64,000 nt of DNA. It comes from Streptomyces barringtoniae. Its GTDB lineage: Bacteria; Actinomycetota; Actinomycetes; Streptomycetales; Streptomycetaceae. The stretch lies in assembly GCF_020819595.1 (NCBI RefSeq), contig NZ_JAJHNP010000010.1:248001-312000 (forward strand), read 5' to 3'. Each line of letters opens with the position of its first letter. Positions within the stretch are counted from its first letter, which is position 1. The notes under the pieces were generated by a model. The model was not told where the DNA came from and did no database searches. It saw only the letters and a program-made list of their open reading frames with translations. A program made the translations under genes and the position numbers. Below, piece after piece: positions 50,702 to 60,296 of this stretch.

Positions 50702-51643
50702 TCAGGCGGCAGCGCCACCGCGGCCGCTGACCAGACGCGGCAGAACGCGGAAGCCGATGCCGCCGGCGATCATCGTCGCGGCGCCGATGAGCAGGAACGC
50801 GGTCTGGCCGGCACCGGTCTCGGCGAGCTGCTTGCCGCTGCCCTGGGGCTGGGTGTCGGAGCCGGTGTCGGTGAGGGCCGAGGAGCCCTCGTCCTGCGAG
50901 GCGTTGTTGTTGCCGCCGCCCTGCGGGGTGTCGTTGTTGCCGCCGGTGCTGGAGGAGCCACCGGTGGTGTTGCCACCCGTGCTGGAGGAGCCGCCGGTGG
51001 TGCTGCCGCCCGAGGTGCCGGAACCGCCGGTGGTGCCGCCGCCGGTGGTGGTGCTGCCACCGTTGCCGTTGCCACCGCCGTTGCCGTTGCCGCCGCCGGT
51101 GCCGTTGTCGCCACCGTTGCCGTTGCCGCCGCCGGTGTTGCCACCATTGCCGTTGCCGCCGCCGGTGTTGCCACCGGTGCCGTTGTCACCGCCGGTCGTG
51201 GTGTCACCGCCCGTGGTGGTGTCGCCGCCGGTCGTGGTGTCTCCGCCGCCGATGACGCCGCCGATGGTGACGTCACCGCCGGTGTCGCCACCGGTCGTGG
51301 TGTCACCGCCCGTCGTGGCGTCACCGCCGGTCGTGGCGTCACCGCCGGTCGTGGCGTCACCGCCGGTCGTGGCGTCACCGCCGGTCGTGGCGTCACCGCC
51401 GGTCGTGGCGTCGCCGCCGGTCGTGGTCCCGCCGGTGGTGGTGCAGATGCCGAGATCGCAGCCGCCGTCACCGCCGTCGGTGCCGCCGTCGTCGCCGTTC
51501 GCGTGCGCGCTCAGGCTGATCGGGCCGGCCTGGACATCGATGCCCGCGGCGGAAGCCGCGCCGGCTGCGGTCAGCGACGCACCGGCCGCGATCACGGCGC
51601 CGGCGGCTATCCGCGCGACCCGGATCCGCGTCTTCTTCGTCAT
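50702..51643 (-). CDS. Sortase-anchored LAETG surface protein with Thr/Gly repeats
   Basis: 313 residues. Signal peptide to about residue 33, a short Asp/Gly-rich start with CDLGIC, then a low-complexity body of Gly, Thr, Asn, Ser. A hexapeptide TTGGDA occurs about six times, encoded by a near-identical 18-base unit. The end carries LAETG (273-277), a hydrophobic helix and an Arg tail: a class E sortase signal. It would be covalently attached to peptidoglycan. Ser/Thr-rich regions are often glycosylated. Confidence 0.88.
   Translation of the reverse strand: MTKKTRIRVARIAAGAVIAAGASLTAAGAASAAGIDVQAGPISLSAHANGDDGGTDGGDGGCDLGICTTTGGTTTGGDATTGGDATTGGDATTGGDATTGGDATTGGDATTGGDTTTGGDTGGDVTIGGVIGGGDTTTGGDTTTGGDTTTGGDNGTGGNTGGGNGNGGNTGGGNGNGGDNGTGGGNGNGGGNGNGGSTTTGGGTTGGSGTSGGSTTGGSSSTGGNTTGGSSSTGGNNDTPQGGGNNNASQDEGSSALTDTGSDTQPQGSGKQLAETGAGQTAFLLIGAATMIAGGIGFRVLPRLVSGRGGAAA
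51308..51425. repeat. Tandem 18-bp repeat in the LAETG gene
   Basis: The unit GTCGTGGCGTCACCGCCG repeats about six times with few changes. Such runs expand or contract by slippage, so the repeat count could differ between strains. Confidence 0.8.
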
Positions 51644-53150: not shown

Positions 53151-54377
53151 TCAGGGGGTGGACGTGCTGTGGGTGTTCTGCGGCGCGTCCGAGTCCCCGT
53201 CGGCCGACGCCAGCCACGCGCCGACGCCCACGACAGCGGCCAGGACCACTCCGGCCACTCCCAGAGTGACCCTTCGACGCCGCACCGCGGCCTTGTGCCG
53301 GGCCGACCCCGGCCTGGGCGCACCGGTGGCCCGGGGAACGCGAGCGGTCCCGTGCGCGCCGCCCGCAAGCTCGTCCGGCCCCGGCACCCTCATCGACGTG
53401 TGCGTGTCCCGGTTGGAGTCCGGCTTGGCCCCGGGGACGAGGGGCACCGCCCCCCGCCGCCGTACCGGCTCCTCCCCCGGCGGAGCCGACGGCATCGGCT
53501 CGTCGGCGGCCTCCTCGGACAGCTCCGGCTCGTCCACGTCCAGCGGCGGCATCCCGGCCAGCGTCGGCAGCTGCTCCCGCAGCCGCGCCGCCAGCTCGGA
53601 GGCGCGCAGCCGGGACGCGGGCGCCTTGGCCAGGCACTGCACGATCAGCTGCCACAGCTCCTCCGGGATGCCCGGGAGGGGTACGACCGTCTCCGTGACG
53701 TGCCTGCGCAGTACCGCCCCCGGATGTCCCCCGCCGAACGGCGTGAACCCGGCCAGCAGCTCGTACAGGACCGTCGCCAGGGCGTAGATGTCCACGGACG
53801 CGCGCGGCGGCAGGCCCTCGACGATCTCGGGGGCGAGGTAGTCCGGCGTACCGATGATCTTCGTGGCCCGCGTCCGCTTCGGCGTGTCGATCAGCTTGGC
53901 CACGCCGAAGTCGGTGAGCAGGGCGGGGTGGGCGCCGCCGGGTCCCAGCGGACCCTGCATGTCGAGGAGCACGTTCTCGGGCTTGACGTCCCGGTGGACG
54001 ATCCCGGCCGCATGGGCCGCGGCCAGCGCGTCGGCGACGTCGGCGACGATCGCCACGGCCGCCTCGGGGGCGAGCCGCCGCTCGCGCTCCAGCCGGGTGC
54101 GCAGGTCGGTGCCGCGCACGAGGTCCATGACCAGGGCCAGGTCGTTGCCGTCGACGACCAGGTCGCGGACGGTGACGATGTGCGGGTGCTCCAGGCCGAG
54201 CAGCGCGGTGCGCTCCTGGACGAAGCGTCCGACGAGCTCCTCGTCGGAGGCGAGGTCCTCGCGCAGCAGCTTGACGGCGACGGGACCCTCCGGCCCCTCG
54301 CCCAGCCACACCGTGCCGGCGCTGCCCCGCCCCAGGATCTGGTTCGCGGTGTACCGGCTGCCGATCTTCCGTGCCAA
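53151..54377 (-). CDS. pkaB: Serine/threonine protein kinase PkaB
   Basis: 408 residues. Kinase domain about 9-265: G-loop ILGRGSAGTV, K36, HRDVKPENV, DFG in LLTDFGVAKL. A Pro/Glu-rich juxtamembrane stretch (about 275-370) and a single helix (about 375-395, GVAGVVLAAVVGVGAWL) follow; only ~12 residues are outside. TTG start at 54377 with AGGAG 5 bases upstream. Downstream of pkaA on the same strand. Symbol from recalled gene order (pkaB-pkaA next to prfB). Confidence 0.92.
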   Translation of the reverse strand: MARKIGSRYTANQILGRGSAGTVWLGEGPEGPVAVKLLREDLASDEELVGRFVQERTALLGLEHPHIVTVRDLVVDGNDLALVMDLVRGTDLRTRLERERRLAPEAAVAIVADVADALAAAHAAGIVHRDVKPENVLLDMQGPLGPGGAHPALLTDFGVAKLIDTPKRTRATKIIGTPDYLAPEIVEGLPPRASVDIYALATVLYELLAGFTPFGGGHPGAVLRRHVTETVVPLPGIPEELWQLIVQCLAKAPASRLRASELAARLREQLPTLAGMPPLDVDEPELSEEAADEPMPSAPPGEEPVRRRGAVPLVPGAKPDSNRDTHTSMRVPGPDELAGGAHGTARVPRATGAPRPGSARHKAAVRRRRVTLGVAGVVLAAVVGVGAWLASADGDSDAPQNTHSTSTP

Positions 54378-54523: not shown

Positions 54524-56203
54524 TCAGTTGCCGCCGCCCGAGGAACCGCCCAGATCCTTGATCCACTTGCTCGTCTGGTGGACCCAGTGGGTGACCTCGT
54601 GCCAGTAGCTGCGGCCCTGGCCGATCCAGGTGTGCAGAGGGGTCAGCTCGTAGATCAGCCAGCTCGCCACGACCAGGATGACGATCGTGAACAGGCAGCC
54701 CTTCAGGCAGCCGAGGCCAGGGATCTTCATCGGGTTTGCGCTGCGCTGCCGGGGCGCCCGGGGCTCGCGGGCGGGCCGCTGCGGCTCCGGCGCGGGCGGC
54801 GCGTACCGCTGCGGCTGCTGCGGCGGGGCGTACTGCTGGGGCTGCTGGGCCTGCTGGGGCGCATAGCCGTACCCCTGCTGGTACCCCTGCTGCCGGCCGC
54901 GCGGCTGCGGCTGCTGCGGGCGGGACTGCGGGGCCTGCCGCTGCTGCTGCGGACGGGCCACCTGCCGCTGGGGCCGGTGGCGCAGCGGGTCGTCCTCCGG
55001 GGACAGGAACTGCTGGACCTGCGTCTGCTCGTTGCGGTCGCGGGCCGCGCGCAGCTGGGTCTGCCAGGGGTGCGGCTGCTCGGGCTGCGGGCCCTGCGGG
55101 CCGGTGTTCGGCAGCACCGCCGTCGGGTCCGCGGCGCCCGTGTTCGGCAGTACGGCGGTGGGGTCGGCGGCGCCGACGGGGCCGCCGGTGTGCGGCAGCA
55201 CGCTGGTCGCGGCGTTCGGGTCGTACGCGCCCTGGGGGCCGGTGTTCGGCAGCACCTGGGTGGGGTCGGCGGCGCCCGGGACGGCGGCCGGGGCCGGGTC
55301 GGGGGCCAGCAGCGCGCCCACGCCCTCGGCGGCGGCGATCTGCGCGGCGTTCGCGTGCACCCCGATGCCCTCGGCGACGACCCTCAGGCCGCGCGCGAGG
55401 TTCTCGGCGCTGGGCCGTTCGTCGGGGTTCTTGCGCAGGCAGCGCTCTATGACCGTCCACAGCGGGTCGGGGACGGTCGACGGGCGGCGCGGCTCGGCGC
55501 TCAGGTGCTGGTGCAGCACCTCCAGCGCGGTGCTGCCGGAGAACGGCGGGCGGCCGGTGACCAGCTCGTACAGCAGGATGCCGGCGCCGTAGATGTCCAC
55601 GGCGGAGGTCTGCGGGCGGCCCTCGGCGGACTCCGGTGCCACGTACGCGGGCGTGCCGACGAACTCGTGGGTGCGGGTCAGGCCCGGGGAGTCGGCGAGG
55701 CGGGCGATGCCGAAGTCGGTCAGCATCGGATGCAGCTGGCCGTCGTGCTGCCGGAGCAGCACGTTGGCGGGCTTCAGGTCGCGATGGACGACGCCGTCGG
55801 CGTGGCTCGCGGCGAGGGCGTCGGCGATCTGCGCGGTCATCAGCGCGGCGGCCACCGGCGTGAAGGGGCCGTTCTCGCGCAGGTGGCGGTGCAGGTCGGG
55901 GCCGTCGACGAGGTCCATGACCAGCGCCAGCAGATCGCCCTCGACGACCAGGTCGCGGACCCGGACGACGTTCGGGTGGGTCAGGCGGAGCAGCACGGAC
56001 CGCTCGCGCAGGAAGCGCATCACGATGTCCGGGTCGCTCGCCAGCTCCTCCTTGAGGACCTTGATCGCGACCGTCTCGCCGGGCTGACCGGCCACGGCCG
56101 CCTCGGCGCCCGCGGTCTCGCGCTGGCGGGCACGCCAGACGGTGCCTGTGGCGCCGCGTCCGAGCGGCTCCTCAAGCAGGTACTTGCTGCCGACTGGCCG
56201 CAC
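54524..56203 (-). CDS. pkaA: Serine/threonine protein kinase PkaA
   Basis: 559 residues. Kinase domain about 7-270: GRGATGTVW, K48, HRDLKPANV, DFG (LTDFGIARL). Residues about 312-368 hold four repeats of the form T-x-V-L-P-N/H-T-G, then a Gln/Pro-rich linker (about 395-485). A membrane helix (about 500-520, CLFTIVILVVASWLIYEL) and a short Trp-rich end follow. GTG 56203 with GGGAG. Divergent from the FHA-ATPase, which could read the repeats when phosphorylated. Confidence 0.93.
   Translation of the reverse strand: MRPVGSKYLLEEPLGRGATGTVWRARQRETAGAEAAVAGQPGETVAIKVLKEELASDPDIVMRFLRERSVLLRLTHPNVVRVRDLVVEGDLLALVMDLVDGPDLHRHLRENGPFTPVAAALMTAQIADALAASHADGVVHRDLKPANVLLRQHDGQLHPMLTDFGIARLADSPGLTRTHEFVGTPAYVAPESAEGRPQTSAVDIYGAGILLYELVTGRPPFSGSTALEVLHQHLSAEPRRPSTVPDPLWTVIERCLRKNPDERPSAENLARGLRVVAEGIGVHANAAQIAAAEGVGALLAPDPAPAAVPGAADPTQVLPNTGPQGAYDPNAATSVLPHTGGPVGAADPTAVLPNTGAADPTAVLPNTGPQGPQPEQPHPWQTQLRAARDRNEQTQVQQFLSPEDDPLRHRPQRQVARPQQQRQAPQSRPQQPQPRGRQQGYQQGYGYAPQQAQQPQQYAPPQQPQRYAPPAPEPQRPAREPRAPRQRSANPMKIPGLGCLKGCLFTIVILVVASWLIYELTPLHTWIGQGRSYWHEVTHWVHQTSKWIKDLGGSSGGGN
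55101..55270 (-). repeat. Four T-x-V-L-P-x-T-G coding repeats in pkaA
   Basis: TQVLPNTG, TSVLPHTG, TAVLPNTG and TAVLPNTG, often preceded by DP. Each gives T-x-x-L, a sequence form bound by FHA domains once the Thr is phosphorylated. Confidence 0.75.
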
Positions 56204-56243
56204 GTCACGCGCTCCCTGCTGCTTGCTGCTGCTTGCTTGCCTG

Positions 56244-56267
56244 CATTCCGGTTGTCATTCCGGTTGT
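56244..56267. repeat. Perfect tandem 12-bp repeat upstream of pkaA
   Basis: CATTCCGGTTGT occurs twice back to back, 41-64 bases before the pkaA start. It could be a regulatory site. Next to it, TGCTTGC-type triplet-like repeats fill 56213-56243. Confidence 0.5.
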
Positions 56268-56363
56268 CCGACCCACTGTAGTGCCGCCGTTGCGGGCACC
56301 ACGTGTCGACGGAAAGACGCGCGTCCCGGTCTCCTGGTTGCCGGGAGCGGACGTGACCGATCT

Positions 56364-56431
56364 CAAGTGATCGCGGGTACGGCACTGGTCAGGCACTTTT
56401 GGGGGCAGAGCCGACCAATCAAGATCACTTG
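56364..56431. promoter_or_regulatory. Spaced 9-bp inverted repeat between pkaA and FHA-ATPase
   Basis: CAAGTGATC (56364-56372) and GATCACTTG (56423-56431), perfect, 50 bases apart, in the shared divergent promoter. Together with the tandem repeat it fills a 358-base gap (56204-56561) that has no gene. Confidence 0.45.
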
Positions 56432-56561
56432 TCACCGGGTCCCGGGCGCGTTGTCGGTGGCAGGTGCGAGGATGCCTTCCAGTACTGGCCGACGTGCTCG
56501 TGTGTGGGGTGGGGGGAAGTCCGTCCCGCGCAGACCCGCGCAGAAGGGACCGCTGACGCCG

Positions 56562-59500
56562 ATGCAGATCCGGCTGACCGTCGTAGACCCGCTCGGCCCG
56601 TCCCCGCAACGGGGCCGCGCCGCGAGCCGCGACGTGCTGGTCACGGCGCCCACGGGCACGGACCTGGCCGCGGTCGCGTCGGCGCTGGCCGGGGCGGTCA
56701 CCGGGGAGGGCCGCGACACCGCCAACTCCTCCGTCGTGCTCTATGCCGGCACCGAGCGGCTGGATCCGCGCCGCTGCACCCTCGGCGAGCCTCCGCTGGT
56801 CGACGGCGCCGTGCTGTCCCTGGGCGCCCCGGCGGCCGCCGAGCCGCATCCCGAGCTCGACGACGCGCCGACCCAGCTGCATGTCGTCGCGGGCCCGGAC
56901 GCGGGCGGGGTCCACCTGCTGCACGGCGGCCGGATCACCGTGGGCCGCTCGGCCGACGCGGACGTGCCGCTGGACGACCCGGACGTGTCCCGGCTGCACT
57001 GCGCGGTCACCGTCGGGGCGGACGGGCGCGTGTCCGTCGCCGACCTCGGTTCCACGAACGGTACGGCGCTGGACGGGGTGCGGGTGGGCGAGCGTCCCGT
57101 GCAGGTCCCTGCCGGGGGCTTGCTGCGGATCGGGGAGTCGGCGCTGCGGGTTGCTCCGTCCGGGGGGCTCGCCGCGCGGGCGCGGACCGTCTCCGACGGC
57201 GAGGGCTGCCTTCGGGTCGCCCGGGACGCGGTGACGGGTGCGGGGGCGTCGTCTTCGGATGCGGGTGGACCTGGTGCGGGCGCCGGGGAACCCGTGCGAC
57301 CGGTTCAGCACGGCTATGGCTCTGCCGGCTGGGGGACCTCCGGCAGTGGGGGGCAGGAGCACCGGCGGGGGAACCCGGCCGTGGTGCCGGAACAGGCCGG
57401 GGCACCGTGGGTGGAACAGCGGGGCGGTGACGCCGCGGCGTCCGGTGCCGCCGCCGGCGGGGACACCCACGCGGGGCGCCTCGGGGTCGGCGGCGCGGGC
57501 GAGGAGCCGCCGGGCGATGGCCGCAAGGGCGCGCCGGTCCGGGGCATCGAAGCCCCGCAGGGTGCCCGGCGGCGCGGCCTCGGCGCCTGGGCGCGCCGGC
57601 TGGCCGGTGGGCGTGGCGAACAGTCCACCGGCCCCGAGGCGTACGACGGCCCCGACACCCAGGTGGGCGCCGTTCCGGCGGTCACCGCGCCGCAGCAGTC
57701 CGAGACCTGGCCGGATCCCGCCGCTCTGCTGCTGACGGCACTCGGTCCGGGGCCCCGGCTGTGGGAGCGCGGGCCCGGTCATCCGGAGTACCTGACCGTG
57801 CGGCTCGGCACGGCGGACCGGAGCGCGCCGGACGGCTCCGGCGTGGTGCCCGCGGTGCCCGTGACGGCGGCACTGCGCGAGGCGGGCGCCCTGGGCCTGG
57901 CCGGTCCGCGCCCCCGGCTGTCCGGGCTGACGCGCGCGGTGCTGGCCCAGCTGGCCGCGCTGCACTCCCCCGACCTGCTGGAGATCGTGCTGATCAGCGC
58001 CGACCGCTCCCGCCCCGTGGAGGAGCGCACGGCCGAGTGGTCCTGGCTGGGCTGGCTGCCGCATGTCCGGCCGGGCCACGGCCAGGACTGCCGGCTGCTG
58101 CTGGCCTACGACCGCGAGCAGGCGGCGGCCCGCACGGAGGAACTCCTGCGCCGGGTCGACGACCACGCGACGACCGGCAAAGCCGCGGCCCACCCCACCC
58201 GCGTCCCGGCACCGGGCATCACGCCGGGCGCCCCGGCGCACAGCGAGCCGACGGCCACACCCACGCCGGACTCCCGCACGGGCATGCCCGCCGAGACGTC
58301 GGGGACCCATGCCCCGGCCACCGGCGAGTGGGACACCCCGGCCCAGGGGGGCCTTTCCGGCCACCCCGGCGCCCCCGCACCCGGCTCCGGCGCCCCCGCG
58401 CACGGCCGGGCCACCGGCGACTGGGACAACCCCCTCGCCCCGGGCACCCCCGCCGCGCCGGGCGCGCCGGTCGAGGGCCTCGCTCCCGGCCGGCACGGCG
58501 CCACCGTTCCCGGCGGATCCACCCGGGGACCGGCCTTCGGCGCCGGCGACATCCCGCACGCCGCCGGCGCCTCTGGCCCTGCGGGCGCCCCGTCCCACAA
58601 CCTCGCCCCCGGCCGAACCGGCACCCCCGCGCCCGGGCACACCCCCACCACCGCTGCCGCCCCGAGCGGCACCCACCCGTCGGCCGCCCTCTCGACCCCC
58701 GTTCGCCGCCCGTCCTGGGCCAGGGAAGACGCCGAGGTCGGCGGGGTCGGTGGTTTCGCCGGGCCCTGCACCGTCGTCGTCGTGGACGGGGACCCCGGTG
58801 GCGGCGCCCTGCGGGATGCCGTGGCGCGGCTGGCCGTGGCCGGGCCGCGGGCCGGGATTCATGTGATCTGTCTCGCCGAGACCGAGCCCTCCTCGCCCGC
58901 CTCCCCCGTGGCGCTGACGTACGAGGCCGCGTGCGCGGTGGCGCCGACGTTCCGGCACTGCGGTGCCGTGGCGCTGCTCGGCGGGGATGTCGCGACCGCG
59001 CTGCGGCTGCTGCGGGTGGCGCCGGGCGGACCCGTGGGCACGGGGACGCTCGCCGCCGTGGACGCCGTGTCCCTCGCCTGGGCGGAGCGGTTCGCCCGGG
59101 CGCTGGCGCCGCTGCGGCCGGACGGCCCGGCCGGCGAGGGGGACACGCGCGTGGCGGTGCCGTTGCCGCAGTCGGCGCGGCTGCTCGACGAACTGGGGCT
59201 GGCCCGGGCAACCCCGGCGTCGCTGATGGCGCGCTGGGCCGACGCGGCCGACGACGCCCAGGCGCTGGGCGGCCGGGCGCGGGCGGTGCTCGGTGCCGGT
59301 CCGCGCGGGCCGCTCACCGCCGACCTGGTGGCCGACGGACCGCATCTGCTGATCGAGGGGCCGTCCGGCAGCGGTCGTACGGAGTTGCTGCGGGCCGTGG
59401 TGGCCTCGCTGGCCGCCGCCGAGCGGCCGGACCGGCTGGGCGTGGTGCTGATAGACGGCCGGGACGGCGTCGGGACCGGCCCGGCGCACGGCGAGGGCCT

Positions 59501-60296
59501 GCGGGTGTGCACCGACATACCGCATGTCACCACGCATCTGATCGCCAACGACCCGGTGCGCATGCGGGAGTTCGCCCAGTCGCTGGCCGCCGAGCTGAAG
59601 CGGCGGGCGGAGTTGCTGGGCCGGACGGACTTCGCGCGGTGGCACACGGGGCGTGAGGTGTCCGGCCGGATCGTCGCCCAGCGCACGCCGGCCCCCGCCA
59701 CCGGTGACATAGACGCGCCGCCCAGCTCCACCCTGCGGCTGCGGCCGGGGTCGGCCGCGCGGCAACGGGCCGAGGCCGCGCCGCCGCTGCCACGGCTCGT
59801 GGTCGTCGTGGACGACCTGGACGCACTGGTCGCGCCCCCGCTCGGCTCGCCGGGCCGGCCCGCCGCCGGTTCGGTGATGCGCGCGCTGGAGGCGGTGGCC
59901 CGGGAGGGCGAGCGGCTCGGGGTGCATCTGGTGGCGGCGGCCGGGACCGGCGGGCGTACGGCGGAGACCGAACCCGCGCGGCGGGCGTCCCTGCGGGTCG
60001 TGCTGGACGCTCCCCAGCAGGGGCCGGACGAACCGGCGCCGGGGCGCGGCCGGCTGGCCTGCGCGGACGGGCGGGTCGTCGGTTTCCAGGGCGGCCGGGT
60101 GACGGGCCGTATCCCGCGTACCGCGACCCAGCGGCCCACGGTGGTCCCGCTGGACTGGCAGCGCATGGGCGACCCCCCGGCCCGCCGGCCGGTGCGGGAG
60201 CTGGGCAACGGCCCCACCGACCTGGCCCTGCTGGCGAGCGCGGTGGAGCGGGCGGCCCGGGAGGTCTCGGCGGCCGAGGTGCCGTCCCTGCTGTAG
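56562..60296 (+). CDS. FHA-domain EccC/FtsK-like ATPase with disordered inserts
   Basis: 1244 residues. An N-terminal ubiquitin-like stretch is followed by an FHA domain (about 105-190; TVGRSADADV, SRLHC, DLGSTNGT). A first FtsK/EccC-like part (about 380-535; WPDPAALLLTALG) is split by a Pro/Thr-rich insert (about 535-720). A second part (about 900-1244) has P-loop GPSGSGRT (933-940) and Walker B VVVDDLDAL (D1084). The P-loop has Arg in place of the invariant Lys (R939). No membrane helix is visible, unlike EssC/EccC. ATG 56562 is chosen; earlier starts are possible. Divergent from pkaA. Confidence 0.85.
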   Translation: MQIRLTVVDPLGPSPQRGRAASRDVLVTAPTGTDLAAVASALAGAVTGEGRDTANSSVVLYAGTERLDPRRCTLGEPPLVDGAVLSLGAPAAAEPHPELDDAPTQLHVVAGPDAGGVHLLHGGRITVGRSADADVPLDDPDVSRLHCAVTVGADGRVSVADLGSTNGTALDGVRVGERPVQVPAGGLLRIGESALRVAPSGGLAARARTVSDGEGCLRVARDAVTGAGASSSDAGGPGAGAGEPVRPVQHGYGSAGWGTSGSGGQEHRRGNPAVVPEQAGAPWVEQRGGDAAASGAAAGGDTHAGRLGVGGAGEEPPGDGRKGAPVRGIEAPQGARRRGLGAWARRLAGGRGEQSTGPEAYDGPDTQVGAVPAVTAPQQSETWPDPAALLLTALGPGPRLWERGPGHPEYLTVRLGTADRSAPDGSGVVPAVPVTAALREAGALGLAGPRPRLSGLTRAVLAQLAALHSPDLLEIVLISADRSRPVEERTAEWSWLGWLPHVRPGHGQDCRLLLAYDREQAAARTEELLRRVDDHATTGKAAAHPTRVPAPGITPGAPAHSEPTATPTPDSRTGMPAETSGTHAPATGEWDTPAQGGLSGHPGAPAPGSGAPAHGRATGDWDNPLAPGTPAAPGAPVEGLAPGRHGATVPGGSTRGPAFGAGDIPHAAGASGPAGAPSHNLAPGRTGTPAPGHTPTTAAAPSGTHPSAALSTPVRRPSWAREDAEVGGVGGFAGPCTVVVVDGDPGGGALRDAVARLAVAGPRAGIHVICLAETEPSSPASPVALTYEAACAVAPTFRHCGAVALLGGDVATALRLLRVAPGGPVGTGTLAAVDAVSLAWAERFARALAPLRPDGPAGEGDTRVAVPLPQSARLLDELGLARATPASLMARWADAADDAQALGGRARAVLGAGPRGPLTADLVADGPHLLIEGPSGSGRTELLRAVVASLAAAERPDRLGVVLIDGRDGVGTGPAHGEGLRVCTDIPHVTTHLIANDPVRMREFAQSLAAELKRRAELLGRTDFARWHTGREVSGRIVAQRTPAPATGDIDAPPSSTLRLRPGSAARQRAEAAPPLPRLVVVVDDLDALVAPPLGSPGRPAAGSVMRALEAVAREGERLGVHLVAAAGTGGRTAETEPARRASLRVVLDAPQQGPDEPAPGRGRLACADGRVVGFQGGRVTGRIPRTATQRPTVVPLDWQRMGDPPARRPVRELGNGPTDLALLASAVERAAREVSAAEVPSLL

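Follow-up and report, generated by a model that had tools for sequence, protein, structure and literature searches.

In this report we focus on PkaA, a membrane Ser/Thr kinase encoded in a 64,000-nt stretch of the 9.04-Mb genome of Streptomyces barringtoniae (NZ_JAJHNP010000010.1; hereafter the window), whose linker carries four T-x-V-L-P units, and on the divergent neighboring gene, whose product appears to combine a ubiquitin-like (UBL) region, an FHA domain and an EccC core. On balance, we favor the prediction that these units serve as juxtamembrane docking sites that, once phosphorylated, are recognized by an FHA domain, and that this domain most probably belongs to the divergent UBL-FHA-EccC-core protein. 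The evidence consists of the repeat itself, its conservation, its near-strict use of Thr, the intact residues of the FHA domain, the pairing of the two genes and the promoter sequence. Analogy with known systems supports phospho-docking well, but the identity of the reader less so. PkaA and its parts are laid out as follows.

54524..56203, minus strand: PkaA, a Ser/Thr protein kinase of 559 aa, with a kinase domain, a long Pro/Gln/Ala-rich linker and one C-terminal membrane helix (Pfam, translation)
55397..56176, minus strand: kinase domain, residues 10-269 (PF00069, E=2.7e-54), with VAIK, HRDLKPANV, DFG and the activation loop LTRTHEFVGTPAY
55238..55261, minus strand: repeat 1, TQVLPNTG, residues 315-322 (this and the next three by translation and genome DNA pattern match)
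55184..55207, minus strand: repeat 2, TSVLPHTG, residues 333-340
55136..55159, minus strand: repeat 3, TAVLPNTG, residues 349-356
55100..55123, minus strand: repeat 4, TAVLPNTG, residues 361-368
55016..55036, minus strand: RNEQTQV, residues 390-396, a further conserved block of the linker (an RNEQT[QE][VLI]-like block is present in 98/116 linkers)
54653..54709, minus strand: single membrane helix, residues 499-517 (hydropathy)

The four T-x-V-L-P-N/H-T-G repeats described in the initial annotation are indeed present at residues 315-368, with all four T-x-V-L-P units in the linker ahead of the sole membrane helix, and they are unique in the genome, in which a DNA-level search for TxVLP[N/H]TG finds these four and no others and D-[P/A]-T-x-V-[L/M/I]-P has three matches, every one within PkaA. 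Shuffling the 211-residue linker 100,000 times yielded a mean of 0.004 TxVLP motifs and a maximum of 1, against the 4 observed, a test that on its own overstates the significance of the repeats because tandem duplication, visible as arrays of period 36 and 54 in the DNA, contributed to them. In the adjacent copies AADPTAVLPNTG (units 3 and 4, with the preceding AADP), 6/12 codons differ, and all six differences are synonymous. The surrounding architecture is stable among relatives, with exactly one membrane helix predicted by hydropathy in 80/80 Streptomyces orthologs and 30/38 family rows (the other eight are incomplete or have an additional weak hydrophobic segment), and the kinase motifs VAIK, HRDLKPxNV and DFG found by a strict pattern in 108/118 PkaA rows.

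Conservation was assessed in the best 80 of 382 PkaA relatives from Streptomyces and in a family set of 38 rows from 17 genera, including the window protein, 36 of which have a complete linker (L137 and L158, with incomplete linkers, were omitted from the site counts), for a pool of 116 linkers, 115 of them distinct. T-x-V-[L/M]-P is kept in 80/80 Streptomyces rows and 30/36 complete family rows (110/116 in total), and the looser T-x-[VIL]-[LIMVF] occurs at one to five sites in 36/36 complete family linkers across the 17 genera, compared with a shuffled expectation of 0.02-0.16 per linker (P<0.05 in 35/36). What is conserved differs in two respects from the motif as first annotated: its N/H-T-G half is variable among relatives, and four is not a fixed copy number, since T-x-[VL]-[LMFV] is present once in 4 of the 116 linkers, twice in 11, three times in 46, four times in 53 and five times in 2. 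Of the 383 sites of this form, 270 have Asp at position -2, 255 have Pro at -1 and 349 have Pro at +4, while the +3 residue, for which the pattern allowed only four choices, is Leu in 279, Met in 98, Val in 4 and Phe in 2.

The use of Thr is close to absolute. When Ser was allowed as well, T/S-x-[VL]-[LMFV] gave 383 Thr sites versus a single Ser site in the 115 distinct linkers, which overall contain 1019 Thr and 646 Ser; leaving position +2 free gave 379 T-x-x-Phi-P sites (Phi, hydrophobic; Val at +2 in 344) versus one S-x-x-Phi-P site. In the family rows, counted by genus, there are 100 Thr sites and no Ser site over the 17 genera. A control context across all linkers had 294 Thr and 156 Ser. 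FHA domains are described as strictly requiring phosphothreonine, with pTxx[I/L/V] as a ligand class (PMC8786283), and the PkaA sites, almost always Thr with a hydrophobic +3 residue, fit this motif, in line with the earlier suggestion that T-x-x-L is a form that FHA domains accept; the form with Met at +3 lies outside the published class. The possibility that T-x-x-Phi-P is a general motif of kinase linkers was rejected, with 4 sites found versus 1.76 expected in 14 other kinases of the genome that have a usable juxtamembrane stretch (from 40 genome kinase matches 30 loci were taken, five were not parsed and one was PkaA repeated).

The candidate reader is encoded on the opposite strand. The range 55101-57135 to which attention had originally been drawn runs from the repeats through to the end of its FHA domain.

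56562..60296, plus strand: divergent gene, putative UBL region, FHA domain and EccC core, 1244 aa from the ATG that we selected as start (Pfam FHA and FtsK_SpoIIIE; TIGR03924)
56562..56831, plus strand: N-terminal region, probably ubiquitin-like, beta-beta-alpha-beta-beta with E2-9, E21-28, H36-47, E60-67 and E83-87 (AlphaFold2)
56934..57134, plus strand: FHA domain (PF00498, E=7.9e-16)
59358..59381, plus strand: Walker A, GPSGSGRT, with Arg replacing the catalytic Lys (sequence)
59799..59822, plus strand: Walker B, VVVVDDLD, Asp-Asp versus the Asp-Glu of EccC 4NH0 (sequence)

By its sequence, the FHA domain has the features of one that binds phosphothreonine, its contact residues GR, SRxH and STNG being invariant in 38/38 family rows, and OdhI, FhaA and GarA are among its closest relatives of known structure. 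AlphaFold2 models, of low confidence (mean pLDDT of 58 for UBL-FHA and 55 for the EccC core) and used for secondary structure and fold class only, gave Foldseek matches that agree with the FHA and EccC/FtsK folds, and a structure search with the UBL-FHA model listed FHA matches but no entry named as a ubiquitin fold. A separate ubiquitin-like protein is reported in many type VII secretion systems (T7SS) (PMC11217815). The relation of the C-terminal part to EccC is seen in its match to TIGR03924 (EccCa), at E=7.3e-41 and 140.7 bits under a cut-off of 509.15, and in its best sequence matches, EccC 4NH0 and EccC5. There is a single FtsK_SpoIIIE stretch with its P-loop core, compared with two in a paralog in a second cassette of the same genome (L173) and two in the protein of an out-of-family locus (L166). 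Hydropathy detected no segment above threshold in the window protein, while the L173 and L166 proteins have one membrane segment after the FHA domain (252-270 and 232-250, respectively). Among relatives, hydropathy flags 24/38 family proteins, always in the UBL helix or the EccC core, and 39/65 Streptomyces copies, for six of which the segments were inspected.

The Walker A Arg is present in 65/65 readable Streptomyces copies (14/79 rows are incomplete or frame-broken upstream of the motif), while the 38 family rows have Lys in 24, Arg in 13 and an unreadable motif in 1, with Lys in most other genera; Asp-Asp is found in Walker B in the 29/38 family rows where the pattern was found. Four genera in the family set (g1, g3, g5 and g10) show the Lys-to-Arg change, which has perhaps arisen more than once. 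The neighbor looks like a degenerate, soluble, single-core relative of EccC. Of the initial description of a divergent FHA protein with an EccC-like ATPase, the FHA domain, the relation to EccC and the conserved divergence hold, but the label ATPase is doubtful because Arg sits in the place of the Walker A Lys; the protein may not be an active ATPase, and the name degenerate EccC-core protein would be preferable.

The two genes are consistently paired. They are divergent in 37/37 readable family loci, with starts 239-1486 bp apart (3 of 40 family loci, G021, G002 and G034, lacked the genes since the contig ended there), and the FHA gene lies upstream on the opposite strand in 79/80 Streptomyces loci, the exception being cut off by a contig end. 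Between their starts lie a sigma-E-like site and a block that recurs at a listed sigma-E site.

56314..56342, minus strand: sigma-E-like promoter GGCAAC-N17-CGTCTT directed towards pkaA, with 0 mismatches to the S. coelicolor pkaA site pattern
56352..56367, plus strand: CGTGACCGATCTCAAG block, in common with the sigma-E site of SCO2975 (sequence match; the -10 half is not evident in the window)

A looser sigma-E-like site lies upstream of 79/80 orthologs, compared with 27/1200 random pieces, and the TGACCNATCTCAA form of the block is present in 62/80 relatives. Both sco2974 (pkaA) and sco2975 are listed as sigma-E targets (PMC6767563). Because CGTGACCGATCTCAAG matches the sco2975 sigma-E site, the divergent FHA-EccC gene is probably the ortholog of SCO2975, an assignment drawn from this common promoter-region DNA.

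The resulting model is as follows. PkaA or a partner kinase would phosphorylate the repeat Thr, and the pThr-x-V-[L/M]-P so formed would be bound by an FHA domain, for which the divergent protein is the most likely source. The UBL-FHA-EccC-core protein, for which no membrane helix is predicted, would thereby be drawn to the membrane, and with multiple motif copies its recruitment would gain avidity or become graded. Cell-envelope stress probably turns the pair on via sigma-E, and the recruited protein would more likely be a scaffold or a weak or non-hydrolyzing NTPase than a functional secretion motor. A more far-reaching version, which we consider possible but doubtful, is that a type VII motor has been turned into a signaling protein, namely a UBL-FHA-EccC core, soluble and with its P-loop degenerate, which under sigma-E envelope stress is recruited to the membrane in multiple copies by the pThr-x-Val-Leu/Met-Pro repeats of the partner kinase and acts as a multivalent scaffold, with no export.

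Several points weigh against the docking model or against extending it to other loci. First, the six complete rows without strict T-x-V-[L/M]-P belong to two genera (g2 and g5), in which one or two weaker sites remain, and all rows are phylogenetically related, which makes the counts non-independent. Second, bacterial kinases of this type may themselves prefer Thr over Ser, as in mycobacterial relatives. Because such a preference could yield a similar bias, the Thr strictness is no proof of an FHA reader, and because it could explain part of that strictness, it lowers our confidence in docking and raises that in phosphosites without a reader. Third, the AlphaFold2 model is poor in the FHA region, with residues 90-144 below a pLDDT of 50. 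Fourth, no readable locus has pkaA and the FHA gene apart, so that their co-occurrence cannot prove a partnership. Fifth, the linker of the kinase in the L173 cassette has no T-x-x-Phi-P site, and the idea that FHA-EccC genes with kinase neighbors are independent replicates of the pair was rejected, kinase adjacency not being the rule. Among 20 further EccC-type loci, 19 of them EccC-like and 15 of these with a clear FHA score, a kinase was found nearby in only two (L213 and L226; rough gene caller), which disfavors generalizing from L173. Sixth, the literature, mostly open access, yielded no report of PkaA linker phosphorylation or binding, or of SCO2975 function. Last, the genome has 12 FHA matches, and T-x-x-Phi-P is also found in the juxtamembrane regions of PknB, which is encoded elsewhere in the genome.

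These last observations bear on the rival that survives best, which is unlikely but deserves consideration: that the repeats are phosphothreonine docking sites whose main reader is another FHA protein, of the FhaA/FhaB type and encoded near PknB. PknB orthologs (L181-L210) have one or two juxtamembrane T-x-x-Phi-P sites, such as APTTALPP, TSMLPP and TQYLPP, in 29/30 loci (the 30th was trimmed by the search pattern), none in a Ser version and some sharing Val at +2 with PkaA. Moreover, mycobacterial FhaA is reported to read the PknB juxtamembrane domain (PMC6180346, PMC12077195), and with 12 FHA matches other readers are conceivable as well. However, it is the FHA-EccC gene that is the divergent neighbor of pkaA in every readable family locus, and the tendency at +2, Val in 344/379 PkaA sites but by eye mostly Ala or Met in PknB, would suit different readers.

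It is less probable still that the repeats are autophosphorylation sites tuning kinase activity or linker conformation, with no FHA reader. Thr alone would also remain at the sites if the kinase itself favored this residue. Furthermore, juxtamembrane phosphosites of S. pneumoniae StkP are reported to act though FHA domains are absent (PMC12077195). Yet Ser occupies 1/384 sites though it is common in these linkers, and the retention of Val at +2 and Pro at +4 is more than a bare phosphosite needs. Slightly less probable again, and improbable overall, is that FHA-EccC binds the activation loop of PkaA once this is phosphorylated, in the manner of GarA with PknB, with the repeats serving otherwise. 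The commonest activation loops in the PkaA family, LTRT-[HSQ]-E-[FL]-VGTP, hold a T-x-x-Phi site, a structure of the GarA-PknB complex exists (6I2P), and activation-loop recruitment of GarA by PknB is named in the title of a reference within PMC4322841. Such docking is compatible with repeat docking rather than exclusive of it, but it leaves the conserved Thr-x-Val-Leu/Met-Pro unexplained. Finally, the readings of the repeats as neutral slippage products of a low-complexity linker or as remnants of LPxTG sortase signals, suggested by the tandem DNA arrays, the copy number of one to five and the LP[N/H]TG reading of the window copies, are very improbable, since adjacent copies differ only synonymously and the motif is kept over 17 genera, and since a sortase substrate is disfavored by the lack of conservation of the T-G half and the position of the motif on the kinase side of the only membrane helix.

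Comparison with known systems places the docking model in context. Phospho-juxtamembrane/FHA docking, as in PknB-FhaA, and pairs of a kinase and an FHA-EccC protein, as in T7SSd, are already known; the repeat-bearing, sigma-E-linked pair adds a new form to them. The PknB peptide ..GPRT*DPLPR presumably lies in the juxtamembrane region. This peptide, reported to be phosphorylated, is a T-x-x-L-P site (PMC4322841), and in M. tuberculosis, as we predict for PkaA, the phosphorylated juxtamembrane domain of a membrane Ser/Thr kinase recruits an FHA protein (PMC6180346, PMC12077195). The FHA domain of FhaA is also reported to bind RP-pT-GTF of CwlM (PMC6180346), which the context of the PkaA sites resembles in sequence. 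PkaA differs from PknB in that its family has one to five copies of the motif in tandem, usually with Val at +2, a Pfam scan of PkaA gave no PASTA match, and its neighbor is derived from EccC.

T7SSd and T7SSe (TsdC/TseC FHA-ATPase, TsdD/TseD kinase) combine, like the PkaA pair, an EccC/EssC-family protein that has a phosphothreonine-competent FHA domain with an adjoining predicted kinase; the C-terminal part of that kinase is assigned to the envelope (PMC11217815). These systems are known from Olsenella/Bifidobacterium and Bacillota, and the main text of that paper does not mention Streptomyces. In contrast to them, no WXG100 gene was recognized among the window genes around the pair, where small genes were not systematically searched, and the window FHA-EccC protein has no predicted membrane helix and one P-loop core versus four NTPase domains (PMC11217815). 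In T7SSb, the membrane partner of an FHA-EssC protein (YukB/EssC) is likewise a kinase-fold protein with a single helix, YukC/EssB, and the FHA region of YukB is reported to bind the YukC pseudokinase domain directly (PMC9600267). However, EssB is a pseudokinase and the FHA domain of EssC lacks a phosphothreonine site (PMC11217815), whereas the PkaA pair has both kinase motifs and an FHA site. In type VI secretion systems, PpkA-Fha is a membrane kinase and FHA protein controlling a secretion machine via Thr phosphorylation, but the machine is different and the phosphothreonine in A. tumefaciens is on TssL rather than on the kinase (PMC3953482).

Among 60 genomes sampled across the class, eight had a kinase match at E<=1e-60, and four of these eight belong to the genus of the window. 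The closest out-of-family kinase (G094:C4, 52%), which groups with PkaA at 92/75 support, adjoins a WXG100 gene, with a match above cut-off, and a full FHA-EccC gene at L166, the only one of seven out-of-family kinase neighborhoods with an FHA-EccC gene; its linker has, by eye, a single DATVAVPP. At L166 (7471-10251, plus strand), the open frame of the kinase also includes, upstream, a degenerate kinase-like stretch with HGN for HRD, which recalls the EssB pseudokinase. The second cassette of the window's own genome (L173, 3632-12315) consists of an FHA-EssC-like gene, genes for 99, 578 and 92 aa, and then a kinase with a peptidoglycan-binding domain; the 92-aa gene has a WXG100 match below cut-off and the other small gene has none.

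Two other genes of the window, and a possible partner of PkaA, are worth recording.

53151..54377, minus strand: PkaB, a second membrane kinase, downstream of pkaA on the same strand (PF00069)
50702..51643, minus strand: protein that looks secreted (numerous ATTGGD-type repeats, LAETG motif, membrane helix, short tail)

The latter resembles an LAXTG sortase substrate. PkaB linkers contain an RDTHT block in 27/32 rows (23 with a narrower pattern), and in several other genera PkaB has about 685-746 residues, with a long additional C-terminal part. Tail anchoring is reported for S. coelicolor PkaB (PMC3087755), and an interaction between PkaI and PkaA is reported from a screen (PMC4416010).

Taken at its predicted strength, the docking model offers a concrete mechanism for an uncharacterized kinase-FHA pair whose members occur together in every readable Streptomycetaceae locus sampled, and it defines the peptide motif exactly, names a candidate reader and points to sigma-E as the stress regulon. 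If true, it would combine kinase-directed recruitment via a repeated phospho-motif with a relative of the T7SS motor repurposed for signaling, and the similar motif in PknB suggests that there may be a broader juxtamembrane phospho-code across actinobacteria.

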